DNA of 25,617 nt from a virus. The stretch lies in IMG/VR virus record IMGVR_UViG_3300032278_000106, positions 1 through 25,617 of that record; one strand, written 5' to 3'. The translations under genes and the position numbers were made by a program. The notes beneath the pieces were generated by a model, which saw only the letters and a program-made list of their open reading frames with translations, searched no databases and had not been told where the DNA came from. Positions within the stretch are counted from its first letter, which is position 1, and the number at the start of each line of letters is the position of its first letter. Shown here in pieces: positions 18,475-25,617 of the stretch.

Positions 18475-19283
18475 ACCTGCACCAATCGCAGCTCGCAACC
18501 TGGTTGCCGGTCACGCTGGCCGATGCCAAGCAGCACAGCCGTATCGACATCGATGACGACGATGCGCTGATCACGGCGCAACTGGCGGCAGCGGTAGTGC
18601 GTGGCGAGCAGGTGAGCAATCGGCAATTCGCGCCGGCCACCTGGGTCTTGAAGCTGGACGCCTTCACTGGCACCGACACGATCGAACTACCGAAGCCGCC
18701 GCTGCTATCGGTATCCTCGATCCAGTACGTCGATACCGATGGCGCGACGCAGACATTCAGCAGTAGCGATTACAGCGCCGACCGGACGAGCGAGCCGGGC
18801 CGCGTGGTGCTGGGCTTCGGCAATTCCTGGCCTTCGGCTCGAGCGCAGCCCGATGCGATCACGATCACCTATGTCGCCGGGTACGGTTCGGTCGTGACGG
18901 CAGTCAATGCCACGAACGTATTCACGATCGCCAGCGGCGGCAGGACGTATGCCGACAATATGCAGGTGCGTCTATTCTCGGTCGGCGGCGATGTCCCGAC
19001 CGGCCTGACTGCCGACACTGCGTACTTCATCCGCGACGTGAGCGGCTCGACGTTCAAGCTGGCGCTGACCGCCGGCGGCACTGCGATCAGCATCAGCAGC
19101 GACGGCACCGGCACGATCTACATCGACGAGGTGCCGGAGATCATCAAGGCCGCAATCAAGCTGGATGCCGCGCAGTTGTACGAACACCGAGAAAGCACGC
19201 ACGACGGCTGGGTGATGGACAATCCGACATCGGACAACATCTACCGGCAGCAGCACGTCCACACGACCGAGTGGGGTTACTGA
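18471..19283 (+). CDS. head-tail connector (gp6-like) with inserted beta domain
   Basis: The N-terminal 130 residues (VTLADAKQHSRIDIDDDDALITAQLAAAVVRGEQVSNRQF...WVLKLDAF, IELPKPPLLSVSSIQYVDTDGATQTF, ITITYVAGYG) and the C-terminal helices (VPEIIKAAIKLDAAQLYEHRE) are those of HK97 gp6-like connector proteins, which stack under the portal. Between them, at about residues 140-218, lies an extra domain reading NATNVFTIASGGRTYADNMQVRLFS...GLTADTAYFIRDVSGSTFKLALTAGGTAI. It aligns in order with the E1_FCCH-like domain of the four paralogues downstream. At 270 residues it is much longer than usual (around 100-200). Start coupled by ATGA to the upstream gene; stop overlaps the next start (TGATG). Confidence 0.8.
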   Translation: MNLHQSQLATWLPVTLADAKQHSRIDIDDDDALITAQLAAAVVRGEQVSNRQFAPATWVLKLDAFTGTDTIELPKPPLLSVSSIQYVDTDGATQTFSSSDYSADRTSEPGRVVLGFGNSWPSARAQPDAITITYVAGYGSVVTAVNATNVFTIASGGRTYADNMQVRLFSVGGDVPTGLTADTAYFIRDVSGSTFKLALTAGGTAISISSDGTGTIYIDEVPEIIKAAIKLDAAQLYEHRESTHDGWVMDNPTSDNIYRQQHVHTTEWGY

Positions 19284-19990
19284 TGGGACAGGTTCAATAC
19301 AGCGCGGCCCGCCGGCTCGACCGGATACTCGACAGCCAGGGTGACGGCACCGGGACGATCAGCCAGGTAATCGCAGCGACCTCGATCAGCGGTGCGACCA
19401 ATGCCACGCCGATTGTCGTGACAGCAAATAGTCACGGATACAGCGATGGCGACTTTGTTCACATCACCGGCGTCGCCGGCAATACGGCGTGCAATGATTT
19501 GCACATCATCCAAAACAAAACGACAAACACCTTTGAACTGACTACGCCAGCCGGTGTGGATGTGGCTGGCAACGGGTCATACTCAAGCGGCGGCGCCGCG
19601 CACCTATGCTTCGCTTGTAAGCCGGCAGCAGGTGTGACGCATTGCCTGCACGGGATGTCCGGGTACGGCATGGATTCATCTGTCGATCCGAAGAAATACT
19701 TCGGCATCACAGCCTTAACGAACGGCATCAAAGTGCAAGTGCGCCAGGACACGACCGTGCTGCATACATTAACACCGACTCCGATCAAAGTATTCCCACA
19801 CTGGCAGCTCGGCGGAGTGCGGACGGCATTCATGGAAAGCGGCACATATGGTTGCCAGACATGGACGCATGACTATAGCGGCTGTGCAATCAATCTGGAC
19901 GGTGACGCGAACGAATTCTATGTGGTGCTGCATTCCGATGCGATCACGATTGATATGCACGAAGTCAGCGTCAAGGGCGAGATACTGTGA
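19283..19990 (+). CDS. neck-region paralogue 1 (E1_FCCH-like domain, Cys motif)
   Basis: First of four tandem paralogues, 235 residues, started at the TGATG overlap with the connector. Order: N-terminal motif YSAARRLDRILDSQGDGTGT (6-25), E1_FCCH-like beta domain (about 38-105: NATPIVVTANSHGYSDGDFVHITGV, NTFELTTPAGVDVAGNGSYSSGG), then C109-x2-C112-x8-C121-x-H123. Next come a variable patch, a conserved NGIKVQVRQDTTVLHTL, a second variable patch, and CAINLDGDANEFYVVLHSD near the end. FCCH-like domains occur in phage structural proteins. The last variable patch (FPHWQLGGVRTAFMESGTYGCQTW) has an extra Cys. It is separated from copy 2 by 19 bases. Likely virion neck or fibre protein; not proven. 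Confidence 0.75.
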   Translation: MGQVQYSAARRLDRILDSQGDGTGTISQVIAATSISGATNATPIVVTANSHGYSDGDFVHITGVAGNTACNDLHIIQNKTTNTFELTTPAGVDVAGNGSYSSGGAAHLCFACKPAAGVTHCLHGMSGYGMDSSVDPKKYFGITALTNGIKVQVRQDTTVLHTLTPTPIKVFPHWQLGGVRTAFMESGTYGCQTWTHDYSGCAINLDGDANEFYVVLHSDAITIDMHEVSVKGEIL

Positions 19991-20009
19991 ACACGAACCA
20001 GGGCAGACA

Positions 20010-20717
20010 ATGGGACTGATTCAATATAGCGCGGCCCGCCGGCTTGACCGGATAATGGACAGCCAGGGCGACGGCAGCGGCACTGTGACCCAAGTCGTGA
20101 CAGCGAAGACCGTGAGCGGTGCAACCAATGCCACGCCGATCGTCGTGACGGCAACGAGTCACGGATACAGCGATGGGGATTTCGTACACATCACCGGCGT
20201 GGTCGGCAATACGGCGTGCAATGATCTGCACGTCGTGGCAAACAAGACCTCGAATACCTTTGAGCTGACGACGCCGGCAGGCGCGGACGTGGCTGGCAAC
20301 GGGTCATACTCAAGCGGCGGCGCTGCGCATATTTGTTTTGTGTGCAAGCCGGCCAGCGGTGTGACGCATTGCATTCATCAGTTGTCGGGCGTTGCAGTCG
20401 ATTCGGCCTGGACGGATGAGAAATATATGAACGAGACAGCCCTATCGAACGGTATCAAGCTGCAGGTGCGACAGAACACGACCGTCATCAATACATTGAC
20501 AGCGGCCCCGGTAAAGATCTTTATCGATTGGTCACTCGGTGCCGAGCCGCAGATTCTCGGTGAGGCACAAAGCAACGGAGCCGGATCATTCACTTGGCGA
20601 TTCGATAGTTGTTTCGTGAATCTGGACGGTGACGCGAATGAGTTTTTAGTCGTGCTGCACAGCGATGGCCTCGCAATTGATGACCAGTGGTTCAGCGTGC
20701 ATGGCGAGGTATTATGA
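20010..20717 (+). CDS. neck-region paralogue 2 (E1_FCCH-like domain, Cys motif)
   Basis: Second copy, 235 residues. The N-terminus YSAARRLDRIMDSQGDGSGT is nearly that of copy 1, so these two are sisters at this end. From TAKTVSG through GSYSS it is identical over 71 residues to copy 3 (AKTVSG...GSYSS), including a 66-bp stretch without a change (20160-20225 versus 20858-20923). Cys motif at C109, C112, C121, H123. The variable patches read QLSGVAVDSAWTDEKYMNE and IDWSLGAEPQILGEAQSNGAGSFTWRFDS. It ends FVNLDGDANEFLVVLHSDGL. ATG 20010 follows GGGCAG, a weak site; no overlap with copy 1. This mosaic of shared and divergent blocks points to gene conversion among copies. Confidence 0.75.
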   Translation: MGLIQYSAARRLDRIMDSQGDGSGTVTQVVTAKTVSGATNATPIVVTATSHGYSDGDFVHITGVVGNTACNDLHVVANKTSNTFELTTPAGADVAGNGSYSSGGAAHICFVCKPASGVTHCIHQLSGVAVDSAWTDEKYMNETALSNGIKLQVRQNTTVINTLTAAPVKIFIDWSLGAEPQILGEAQSNGAGSFTWRFDSCFVNLDGDANEFLVVLHSDGLAIDDQWFSVHGEVL

Positions 20718-21427
20718 TCGCTTACAGTCCATCGCGAATACTGAACAAATTGGTTGACAGCCAGGGCGACGGCACCGGCACGACGCAACAGTTGCCGGCA
20801 GCGAAGACAGTGAGCGGCGCGACCAACGCCACGCCTATCGTCGTGACGGCAACCTCGCACGGATACAGCGATGGGGATTTCGTACACATCACCGGCGTGG
20901 TCGGCAATACGGCGTGCAATGATTTGCACGTCGTGGCAAACAAGACCTCGAACACCTTCGAGTTGACGACGCCGGCAGGCGCGGACGTGGCTGGCAACGG
21001 GTCATACTCCAGTGATGGCAAGGCGCATCTATGCTTCACCTGCAAGCCGGCAGCAGGTGAGCGATATTGCGTGCATCACTTCACCGGGTATTGCCTGGGC
21101 GGCACGATCAATCCCGAAGAATATCTGCGCGGTGCAGCCCTGACCAATGGGATAGAGGTACAGGTGCGACAGAATACGACGGTCGTGCATACACTGTCAC
21201 CGGCACCGATCAAGACTGCACCGCTTGGCTGGTCATTGGGCAGCCGGCAACTTCCGCCCGCAGAGAAAGTCGGCGGCGGTGCTGTGAACTTCCGCTGGGA
21301 TTTCGCGAACTGCGCAGTCAATCTCGACGGCGATGCCGACGAGTTTTTTGTCGTGCTGCATTCCGACGACATGACGACCACAGATGTCGAACAGCAGCTA
21401 ATGAGCGTCCACGGTGAGTCGATATGA
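20714..21427 (+). CDS. neck-region paralogue 3 (E1_FCCH-like domain, Cys motif)
   Basis: Third copy, 237 residues, joined to copy 2 and copy 4 by ATGA overlaps. The N-terminus changes to MIAYSPSRILNKLVDSQGDGTGT, close to copy 4, while its FCCH domain is identical to that of copy 2. Cys motif C107, C110, C119, H121. Variable patches HFTGYCLGGTINPEEYLRGA and APLGWSLGSRQLPPAEKVGGGAVNFRWDF. The end CAVNLDGDADEFFVVLHSDDM is followed by EQQLMSVHGESI, shared with copy 4 and different from copies 1 and 2. Copy 3 is thus a chimera in pattern: domain like copy 2, ends like copy 4. Confidence 0.75.
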   Translation: MIAYSPSRILNKLVDSQGDGTGTTQQLPAAKTVSGATNATPIVVTATSHGYSDGDFVHITGVVGNTACNDLHVVANKTSNTFELTTPAGADVAGNGSYSSDGKAHLCFTCKPAAGERYCVHHFTGYCLGGTINPEEYLRGAALTNGIEVQVRQNTTVVHTLSPAPIKTAPLGWSLGSRQLPPAEKVGGGAVNFRWDFANCAVNLDGDADEFFVVLHSDDMTTTDVEQQLMSVHGESI

Positions 21428-22131
21428 TTAGCTACTCGTCAGCACGGATACTCAATCGCATACTTGATAGCCAGGGTGACGGCACCGGCACGACGGCCCA
21501 GGTATACGGTGCGAAGTCAGTTGGCGGCGCAACGAATGCCACGCCGATCGTGATCACGTCAACCTCGCACGGGTACAGCGATGGCGACTTTGTTCACATT
21601 ACAGGAGTCGTCGGGAACACTGCCGCGAATGACCTGCACGTCGTGGCGAACAAGACTGCGAATACTTTTGAATTGAACACACCAGCCGGCACGGACGTGG
21701 CCGGCAATGGGTCATATGACAGCGCCGGGGCGTGTCATCTGTGCTTCGCCTGCAAGCCAGCCAGCGGCGAGCAGTATTGCCTGCACCGCTTCCAGGGATA
21801 TGTACTCGGCGGCAGTGTCGCGAACGGTACACTGTACCACGACCAGACAGCCCTGACGAACGGCATCAAGGTACAGGTGCGCCAGGATACGACCGTGCTG
21901 CATACACTGTCGGTGCTGCCGATCACCCGTGGGCCGCTGTGGCAACTCGGCAATGAGCCGGTCGCTGCATCAGTGGAACAAGTCAGCGGCGCCGTGCAGG
22001 GGTGGTCGTGGAATTTCTCAGCCTGCAACGTCAATCTCGACGGCGATGCTGACGAGTTCTTCGTGATCCTCAATTCCGATGCGATGACGGTCGAGCAGCA
22101 GTTAATGAGCGTCCACGGGGTGACGATCTAA
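21424..22131 (+). CDS. neck-region paralogue 4 (E1_FCCH-like domain, Cys motif)
   Basis: Fourth copy, 235 residues, and the most diverged in the FCCH region (KSVGGATNATPIVITSTSHGYSDGDF, NTAANDLHVV, NTFELNTPAGTDVAG). It loses the Cys that the other three have in NTACND but gains C104 before the motif C107, C110, C119, H121. Variable patches RFQGYVLGGSVANGTLYHDQ and GPLWQLGNEPVAASVEQVSGAVQGWSWNFS. It ends CNVNLDGDADEFFVILNSDAM and EQQLMSVHGVTI. The stop overlaps the start of the head closure gene (TAATG), so the cluster lies inside the head-tail operon and not in a separate cargo unit. Confidence 0.75.
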   Translation: MISYSSARILNRILDSQGDGTGTTAQVYGAKSVGGATNATPIVITSTSHGYSDGDFVHITGVVGNTAANDLHVVANKTANTFELNTPAGTDVAGNGSYDSAGACHLCFACKPASGEQYCLHRFQGYVLGGSVANGTLYHDQTALTNGIKVQVRQDTTVLHTLSVLPITRGPLWQLGNEPVAASVEQVSGAVQGWSWNFSACNVNLDGDADEFFVILNSDAMTVEQQLMSVHGVTI

Positions 22132-22466
22132 TGGCATCCGCAGGTCAAATGCGAAACCGGGTTGAGGTTCAGCAGGCCCAGGAAAGCGCCGACGCGCACG
22201 GGCAGACCTCCCGTGCCTGGACAACGATCGCAACACGCTGGGCATCGATCTCATCCGATGCCGGCGATGAAGTTCTCGAGGGCGGGCAGCAGGAAGTTCG
22301 CAATACGCACAGCATCCGTATGCGCAGCTTCCCGGTGCTGCAGGCAGACACGCACCGGCTGATCGTGCGCGGCATCGTCTACGACATCAACGGCGCCACG
22401 CACGACCAGGCCGGCAAGCAGCGCACGACTTCAATCGCAGCGACGGACACGGGTGTGACGGCATGA
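22131..22466 (+). CDS. head closure / head-tail joining protein
   Basis: A 111-residue protein with the pattern of the Phage_H_T_join family: MRNRVEVQQAQESADAHGQTSRAWTTIATRWASISSDAGDEVLEGGQQEVRNTHSIRMRSFPVLQADTHRLIVRGIVYDINGATHD. The markers are the opening 'mR.rv.iq.....d..G....W.......wa.i....g.E...a.q.....' and 'i..r.r.....r...g..ydI'. It seals the portal-connector channel after packaging and presents the tail-binding surface. Start overlaps the previous stop (TAATG) and stop overlaps the next (ATGA). Confidence 0.8.
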   Translation: MASAGQMRNRVEVQQAQESADAHGQTSRAWTTIATRWASISSDAGDEVLEGGQQEVRNTHSIRMRSFPVLQADTHRLIVRGIVYDINGATHDQAGKQRTTSIAATDTGVTA

Positions 22467-22888
22467 CGTTGAAGGACGAAATCACGCGATACCTAAAGGG
22501 CAACGCCGGCATCGCCGCTGCCGTGGCTGGGCGCATCTTTCCCGGCCTGGCGCCGCAGTCAGCCTCGCGGCCCTATCTGCTTTGGTCACGCATAGCGGAT
22601 GCGCCAGGGCATCATCTCGCCGCATCGTCAGATATGTCGTCGGCACTGATCCAGGTGGACGTGATGGCCGACAGCAGCATCGAAGCCGAGACAGCAGCAG
22701 AGGCGGTGCGCGAGGCGGTGGACGGTTACCGCGGCACGCTGAATGACGAGTTCCACATCGACTCGATGTGGCTCGATGCCGAGGCCGACTTTGTCGAGTC
22801 GAAGGGTGACGGCAGCGACGACAGCACCTATCAGATTTCTCTATCAATCACGGTCAATTACCGGCGCACGGTGCCGGTATTCAATTAA
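22463..22888 (+). CDS. tail completion / terminator-like protein (DUF3168 type)
   Basis: A 141-residue protein matching the DUF3168 layout: LKGNAGIAAAVAGRIFPGLAPQSASRPYLLWSRI, then HLAASSDMSSALIQVDVMADSSIEAETAAEAVREAVDGYRG, and YQISLSITVNYRR at the end. The family pattern 'RiyP..aPq....PyivY......+..lsG......riqvDvwa.s...A..la..vr.al.g' fits. It caps the tail tube and joins it to the head closure protein. Coupled by ATGA to the upstream gene. Confidence 0.78.
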   Translation: MTLKDEITRYLKGNAGIAAAVAGRIFPGLAPQSASRPYLLWSRIADAPGHHLAASSDMSSALIQVDVMADSSIEAETAAEAVREAVDGYRGTLNDEFHIDSMWLDAEADFVESKGDGSDDSTYQISLSITVNYRRTVPVFN

Positions 22889-22909
22889 AAACAAACAAGG
22901 AGAAGAACA

Positions 22910-23344
22910 ATGCCTGGATCAGCATCTCGATCAATCGTAGGAGCGACAGTCGTTTTTGGAACGACATCCTACTCGCAGCAAATCACCAGTGTCGGCATCA
23001 GTGGTGCCGGGCGCACGGCGATCCCAACCTCGCACCTCGGCACGACGCTGGCGACCTCGGGGAAATTCGGTAGTATGACATTCAGAGCGAGCGACCTGGT
23101 GAATCCCGGCACTGTCGATCTGGGCATCCATTACGATCCCGACGACGTGCCGATCATCGACACCGCCGCCGAGACTTGCACGATCACATGGGCGACCGTG
23201 ACAGGCGATTCCAGTGGCTCGATACTCGCGGCTTCGTATATCGGTACTGACTTCTCGTTCAGCGGCAGCGTTGACAGCGAGCTGTGTGAAGGATCGATGA
23301 CGGGCCAGCTCAGTGGCAATGTCACACGGACGGCAGCAACCTAA
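22910..23344 (+). CDS. major tail tube protein
   Basis: A 144-residue protein with good site AAGGAGAAG upstream of ATG 22910, in the usual place between completion and chaperone genes. Residues are beta-rich and Ser/Thr/Gly-rich: VVFGTTSYSQQITSVGISGAGRTAIPTSHLGTT, KFGSMTFRASDLVNPGTVDLGIHYDPDDVPIID, ETCTITW, and GTDFSFSGSVDSELCEGSMTGQLSGNVTRTA. These follow the two-sheet plan of siphovirus tube proteins ('...i....g.e.d.id.T.h.s......y..gl.d.G.v...~.f'). It polymerises in rings around the tape measure. Strong ribosome binding fits a high-copy protein. Confidence 0.75.
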   Translation: MPGSASRSIVGATVVFGTTSYSQQITSVGISGAGRTAIPTSHLGTTLATSGKFGSMTFRASDLVNPGTVDLGIHYDPDDVPIIDTAAETCTITWATVTGDSSGSILAASYIGTDFSFSGSVDSELCEGSMTGQLSGNVTRTAAT

Positions 23345-24599: not shown

Positions 24600-25617
24600 A
24601 TGGCGAAGATAGCAGACATCTCGACGAAGTTGTCGCTGAATAACCGGGACTTCAAGAAAGGTTTACAGTCAACCAGCAAAAGCCTCGGCAAGTTCCACGC
24701 CGCATTCAAGCGTGCTGCCGGCAGAATCGCGAAGGCCGGCGTGGTGGCCTTGGCTGCCGTAGGCGTTGCGATGGTAGCGATCGTCAAGAAGACAGCCAGC
24801 AAGATCGACGAGCTATCGAAGGAAGCCCGCAAGCTGGACATCACCACGGAGATGCTCGCCGGCCTCGGTCATGCTGCAAAGTTGTCCGGGCTGGATCAAG
24901 AGAAACTCGGCAAGTCGCTTATAAAAATGACGAAGGCAGTGAGTGAAGCGAACGAGGGATTGTCCACGCAGGTGCGAGCGTTCGACGATCTCGGGCTGGA
25001 GGTCGGCGATCTGATGAAGATGGACGCCGGCCAGCAGTTTCTAACGATTGCCGATGCGTTCGGGAACATCGAGAACCACAGCACGAAGGTGCGTGTGGCG
25101 ATGGACATCTTCGGGCGTACTGGTGGCGACCTGCTGGTGACGATGGAACAGGGCGCCGAGGGCATCCGGCGTGCCATCGAAGAAGCGAAGCGCCTGGGGA
25201 TAACATTCTCGGAAGAGCAAGGAGCAATGGTCGAGGAGGCGAACGACTCGATGACGAAGCTGGCATCAATCGGAGAGGGTGCGTTCAACCAGTTGACGAT
25301 CGGCGTTGCACCATTCATTTCGCTATGGTCAGATGCAATGACCGAGGCGGCACTGGAAGGCGAAAGCATGACCGACCGAGTGTCTGCCGGGATCGAGAAG
25401 ATCGTGAAGGTGATCGGCGTACTCGGCAATGCTATGAATCTGGTTAAAGGCACGATTCAGTTCGCCTTCGGCGGTATTCAGTTAGTCATTTTCGGGACGC
25501 TGAAAGGCATCAATGAATCGCTTATCTGGACGTTCGGACAGATCGATAAAGCGTTACGAGCCGCTGCGAAGTTACCTTTCGCTGAGAAGCTCGGAATCCC
25601 AGCAGGGCTGAATCCAG
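24600..25617 (+). CDS. tail tape measure protein, N-terminal part (gene runs off the window)
   Basis: ATG 24600 with AGGAG nine bases upstream opens a frame that is still open at the window end (339 codons). Residues 1-45 are basic and helical (KLSLNNRDFKKGLQSTSKSLGKFHAAFKRAAGRIAKAG), as in 'i.l~ad.~~f~~gl~~~~~~l~~f~' tape measure starts. A hydrophobic segment follows (VVALAAVGVAMVAIV, about 48-62). The next part (IDELSKEARKLDITTEMLAGLGHAAKLSGLDQEKLGKSLIKMTKAVSEA) is the typical repeating helical region, and GGDLLVTMEQGAEGIRRAIEEAKRLG is also a common tape measure phrase. It sets tail length. The 3' part lies outside. Confidence 0.9.
   Translation, partial: MAKIADISTKLSLNNRDFKKGLQSTSKSLGKFHAAFKRAAGRIAKAGVVALAAVGVAMVAIVKKTASKIDELSKEARKLDITTEMLAGLGHAAKLSGLDQEKLGKSLIKMTKAVSEANEGLSTQVRAFDDLGLEVGDLMKMDAGQQFLTIADAFGNIENHSTKVRVAMDIFGRTGGDLLVTMEQGAEGIRRAIEEAKRLGITFSEEQGAMVEEANDSMTKLASIGEGAFNQLTIGVAPFISLWSDAMTEAALEGESMTDRVSAGIEKIVKVIGVLGNAMNLVKGTIQFAFGGIQLVIFGTLKGINESLIWTFGQIDKALRAAAKLPFAEKLGIPAGLNP

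Follow-up and report, generated by a model that had tools for sequence, protein, structure and literature searches.

A tandem array of E1_FCCH-type paralogues between the head-tail adaptor and closure genes of a siphovirus-type phage, with signs of block exchange and recombination among copies

The window, meaning the whole 25,617-nucleotide stretch of viral DNA analysed here, is a fragment of a siphovirus-type phage with genes for terminase, portal, protease, HK97-type major capsid protein (MCP) and tape measure protein (PHROGs), and its entire sequence is contained unchanged in a 34.5-kb IMG/VR contig. Four intact paralogues of the same orientation, copies 1 to 4 (Table 1), occupy the interval between a gp6-like head-tail adaptor gene and an Hc1-type head-closure gene; this arrangement was described in a first-pass annotation, and reading frames, identities and profile matches agree with it. 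Copies 2, 3 and 4 share 66, 61 and 63% amino-acid identity with copy 1, and DNA repeat families recur within the array at a spacing of ~700–727 nt. The junctions are, in order, TGATG (a 1-nt overlap of the adaptor gene and copy 1), a 19-nt gap, ATGA, ATGA, and TAATG between copy 4 and Hc1; given these overlaps and the short gap, translation of the block is probably coupled to that of the neck genes. The array is real and well delimited, and its biological role is putative.

Table 1. Coordinates of the array, its flanking genes and the shared tract of copies 2 and 3
Feature	Start	End	Strand	Length	Basis or remark
Putative decoration gene, separate from array	17718	18197			
gp6-like head-tail adaptor, left flank of array	18471	19283	+	270 aa	PF05135 5.6e-7; PHROG 442 2.6e-23
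Copy 1	19283	19990	+	235 aa	ORF; FCCH match at residues 46–106
Copy 2	20010	20717	+	235 aa	ORF; 19-nt gap after copy 1
Candidate conversion tract of copy 2, common to copy 3	~20158	~20228	+		22 consecutive silent polymorphic codons identical; alignment columns 51–72; permutation p=0.0022
Copy 3	20714	21427	+	237 aa	ORF; 4-nt overlap with copy 2 (ATGA)
Copy 3 counterpart of the tract	~20856	~20926	+		approximate coordinates
Copy 4	21424	22131	+	235 aa	ORF; 4-nt overlap with copy 3, 1-nt overlap with Hc1 (TAATG)
Hc1-type head-closure (stopper) gene, right flank	22131	22466	+	111 aa	PF05521 (Phage_HCP) 3.2e-17; PHROG 25
Tail terminator	22463	22888	+	141 aa	PF11367 1.3e-13
Tube-like gene, separate from array	22910	23344			

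The surrounding genes have features of their own. The adaptor carries an inserted beta-rich module at ~residues 140–219, weakly similar to tail-fibre PHROGs, which is also found in the adaptor of the relative L063 and is absent from that of L074; the C-terminal loop of the adaptor varies between relatives. A gp10-like gene that follows Hc1 in L063 (6568–7038) and L074 (2556–3002) is missing there in the window (22463–23344), and a gene resembling it by eye sits after the tape measure gene in the window clade. At 1449–1766, a 159-nt unit forms two tandem repeats (94%) inside a 302-aa gene (963–1871) that matches HNH endonuclease and HTH DNA-binding families, and the repeat duplicates part of the HTH-like region.

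Each copy contains an E1_FCCH-type beta domain at ~residues 31–106, followed by a domain of ~130 residues that matches no sequence family. PF16190 (E1_FCCH) matches each window copy at ~residues 43–106 with E values of 1e-6 to 3e-5, just under the Pfam cut-off, and several copies exceed that cut-off in six-frame searches of related contigs. In an AlphaFold2 model, built from an alignment deepened with FCCH rows taken from nozzle genes, the FCCH domain has a pLDDT of ~80–94, and its predicted fold matches the solved FCCH half-domain 2v31 with a target TM of 0.60. Profile and predicted fold together assign the copies to E1_FCCH, in agreement with the domain call made on first reading for all four. 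The C-terminal ~130 residues are beta-rich in the predicted model, with moderate-to-low confidence (roughly pLDDT 37–78 by 10-residue block), and the model, of moderate confidence in this half, is without long helices.

Whole-length Foldseek matches of the model have low TM-scores (0.28–0.41). The best BFVD match, A0A6J5LCD6, a 224-aa uncultured-phage protein, aligns end to end (24% identity across 229 columns, E 1.7e-8), which makes it probable that proteins with both domains occur beyond the window clade. For the C-terminal domain taken by itself, we found no distant relatives in viral contigs beyond the same clade, none in genome contigs or PHROGs and no credible match among solved structures, and a search of 294 genomes of the phylum of G019 gave a single weak 50-residue match that we judged to be chance. 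Besides FCCH-region matches and sub-threshold noise, the copies have no Pfam or PHROG match. In particular, none matches Phage_connect_1 or Phage_HCP, and separate gp6 and Hc1 genes fill both roles, by which a plain connector component was rejected.

Two of the short motifs previously pointed out, SQGDG and C-x2-NLDGDA(N/D)EF, are present in all four window copies. A third, C-x2-C-x8-C-x-H, is likewise found in every window copy but does not hold for the family: in all six copies of L010 and L011 Ser takes the place of the first Cys, and in two copies the His is replaced by Asn or Asp. The Cys residues invariant across the family are 112, 121 and 201. Because C-x2-C-x8-C-x-H is not conserved in the family, we ruled out a zinc-finger or zinc-binding reading.

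Conservation is uneven along the protein. Mean pairwise amino-acid identity, computed over 14 copies, is 0.86 in the FCCH domain, 0.40 in residues 121–142 and 0.38 in residues 169–197, bearing out the original impression of a nearly frozen domain with two divergent patches downstream. In every computable region dN/dS is below 1, at or below 0.37, and it is 0.13–0.33 in the variable patches where computable; positive selection was not seen in these comparisons, many of which are near dS saturation. The patches show relaxed purifying selection, together with recombination.

Three copies are present in L009, L010 and L011/L012/L013, the last three having near-identical arrays, and four in L008, as in the window; contig ends truncate the interval in L014/L053 and L054. 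Complete arrays are known in four distinct versions, including that of the window. All copies are intact in all relatives, and among complete intervals in the clade there are never fewer than three copies: no relative was found with one copy, the case that would have spoken against a multi-part structure, or with zero. A scan for the motif DSQGDGTG returned known relatives and unrelated frames only, and we found no description of such an array in the open-access literature.

Phages that share the capsid protein at ~40–55% identity occur without the array, and the adaptor gene directly adjoins the closure gene in L063/L079, L077, L078 and L090. The four genes are therefore an insertion, in line with the earlier statement that connector and closure genes are normally adjacent. 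In L074, the slot between gp6 and Hc1 holds a different single gene of 139 aa, to which a 137-aa protein encoded in the window phage's tail-end region is related (42% identity, 4e-25), and other accessory genes stand between the decoration gene and gp6 in L078 and L080. Judging from the array-less relatives and the different gene of L074, the array is a derived insertion into a slot that accepts different accessory genes.

The 135–139 aa family itself has a weak virion-structural PHROG match and is found at three places: it lies in the gp6/Hc1 slot in L074 (1804–2223) and just before gp6 in L078 (6312–6719), whereas in the window phage it belongs to the tail-end region (L110, reverse strand; G001, upstream of the window). 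Most capsid relatives in genome collections (L078, L081, L083–L091) are from Planctomycetota MAGs, which gives a hint of the host range of the wider phage group.

Comparison with L011 sets the array apart from its flanks. Specifically, nucleotide identity between the window and L011 is 88–99% up to 19.2 kb, 60–74% in the array and 88–99% again at 22.2–23.7 kb, and dS is 0.05–0.22 in MCP, gp6, Hc1, terminator and tube genes as against 1.1–2.1 in the array. The arrays of L010 and L011 differ by a dS of 0.63–0.83, close to the dS of their flanks. Because dS is low in the flanks and high in the array, and the L010 and L011 arrays are closer to each other, L011 has a window-like backbone carrying an L010-like array. 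The same contrast of flank and array dS shows that whole arrays have been swapped as blocks between phages whose backbone is conserved; alternatively, the high array dS could reflect old divergence with little exchange pressure.

The tape measure gene (window 24600–25617 and beyond) is a second swap island, with ~47–65% nucleotide identity between the window phage and G003 (L113). Past it, the tail genes of these two phages are 95% identical, although their arrays differ.

Recombination has also left traces among the copies. Copy 1 of L009 is a chimera of copies 1 and 2: its codons 1–60 match window copy 1 at 26 of 29 informative sites, whereas from codon 121 on 100 of 122 informative sites match copy 2, with a changeover at ~codons 100–125. 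This changeover point, in the one clear chimera, coincides with the junction of the FCCH and C-terminal domains. Trees of the N-terminal and C-terminal halves conflict, with support of 0.94 and 0.999. Furthermore, a permutation test of 15 within-array pairs detected gene-conversion tracts between window copies 2 and 3 (p=.002), L010 copies 1 and 2 (p=.0009), L010 copies 1 and 3 (p=.0003) and L011 copies 1 and 2 (p=.002), the four p-values of.0003–.0022 becoming about.005–.033 after Bonferroni correction. In three of the four arrays, significant tracts fall within the FCCH segment or adjoin it, so that the frozen look of this domain is partly homogenisation by gene conversion between copies and not function only. 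Block exchange of the array and recombination among its copies are new relative to the first reading.

What the proteins do is approached here by analogy. Since FCCH is an outward domain of T1-type tail tubes and is also found in podophage nozzles, a virion-surface role at the neck or tail is likely. On balance, we favour the reading that the array encodes accessory virion-surface proteins in the adaptor/closure slot, which probably sit on the upper tail or where head and tail join. In each subunit, a short N-terminal stretch would be followed by the FCCH beta module and then by a beta-rich domain of ~130 residues with two variable patches. Gene position, the outward FCCH of T1-type tubes, and the Milano and neck-passage (NPS) precedents discussed below suggest that the proteins are in the virion, with FCCH facing outwards and the variable patches meeting variation in the host surface or host defences. 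The earlier picture of a fixed scaffold with variable patches stands as to the conserved domain and the two patches, but by analogy with T1 gp41 the FCCH domain is more likely outward-facing than an anchoring scaffold. Different paralogues may occupy different positions of one neck- or collar-like structure; the four may form a hetero-oligomeric collar or whisker and may contact a receptor. Recombination in and near the conserved FCCH stretch has combined FCCH halves with different variable domains, and the array would serve as a reservoir of variants. In its fullest form, a neck of several paralogues in which each copy has its own ring or position, with the genes as a built-in diversity generator, FCCH as the recombination hinge for variable domains and whole arrays swapped via the conserved neck genes, this scheme is speculative and rather unlikely.

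Other readings explain part of these data. The copies may decorate the tail tube, tail tip or capsid (as head fibres) and not the neck, the slot merely taking accessory structural genes: the solved FCCH homologue sits in T1-type tail tube proteins, relatives place other accessory genes before gp6 or between gp6 and Hc1, and the slot gene of L074 has its relative in a tail-end region. However, the phage already has a putative decoration gene and a tube-like gene, and the close overlap of start and stop codons at both neck genes points to joint production with the neck, so that we consider decoration elsewhere a serious contender with a minority share of the probability. The diversity may instead stem from escape from host defences that sense neck or structural proteins. 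Any diversifying pressure, this one included, should lead to relaxed patches and to block replacement between flanks that stay conserved, and the 95% identity of the window phage and G003 in the tail genes beyond the tape measure, despite their different arrays, would fit such escape in place of receptor contact; it does not explain the presence of multiple copies, however, and we hold it improbable. Neutral tandem duplication, with redundant copies held by purifying selection, homogenised by conversion and having no special role, would account for a dN/dS below 0.4 wherever computable, and any tandem repeat should undergo conversion and unequal crossing-over. Against it, the copies are kept intact, at three or more wherever the interval is complete, and orthologous copy identities persist between the window and L009 in the C-half tree, which argues for distinct retained roles; a neutral origin therefore also has a low probability.

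The adaptor/closure junction is usually viewed as the most rigid part of the siphophage genome. In these phages, by contrast, the junction is a swap island: it changes much more quickly than the genes on either side and contains three or four paralogues that recombine and share a domain known elsewhere from tail tubes and nozzles. What is surprising is to find block exchange and intra-array recombination at this place. The array would be, as these comparisons suggest, a fast-changing part of the virus surface, and provided that virions contain these proteins, rapid adaptation takes place at the neck or upper tail and not at the tail tip alone.

The FCCH module also occurs in tail proteins. Pelagiphage tail tubular protein B contains it, as does the product of a Vibrio phage MZH0603 gene directly downstream of the adaptor gene; these podophage nozzles have the same module at 47–57% identity but as a small insert in a single-copy, much larger protein (~850 aa in pelagiphage-like contigs). 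The module also matches T1-type tail tube proteins (PHROG 584; 9jlf_E, the tail tube protein of FCWL1). Residues 16–94 of T1 gp41 form an outward domain that is inserted near the N-terminus of the tube beta-sandwich and extends outside the tube (PMC11945409). Like the array copies, to which they are similar in length, T1 gp41 and 9jlf_E have FCCH after a short N-terminal stretch and before a C-terminal beta domain. They differ in being encoded by one gene without an array, in a role for which the window phage has its own tube-like gene, and the likeness is limited to FCCH: whole-length homology to PHROG 584 was not supported, the profile match stopping at ~residue 106 and hhalign covering residues 31–94 only.

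Two collar systems offer architectural parallels. The collar of the Agrobacterium phage Milano consists of four stacked gp13 rings (PMC10491603). Gp13 is of similar size (230 aa) and is a beta-rich subunit of two domains, a wall domain and a decorating domain inserted in it. Like the array, its gene adjoins neck genes, in this case immediately upstream of gp14 neck 1; it is however a single gene of a myophage, which precedes the adaptor and does not separate it from the closure gene, and sequence homology was rejected (hhalign probability 0.3). In lactococcal 936 and P335 siphophages, the NPS is an accessory collar at the head-tail connector with a conserved N-terminal part and swapped, variable distal host-binding modules (PMC6669499). 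NPS proteins differ from the array proteins in being encoded by one gene of 500–900 aa without an array, with a coiled-coil fibre, a carbohydrate-binding module and different domains (PMC6669499), and no NPS-type profile match, such as one to a BppU-like N-terminal domain, was seen in the copies with Pfam or PHROG. What the two have in common is an accessory position at the head-tail connector, probable for the array proteins, and a conserved N-terminal part joined to a variable rest.
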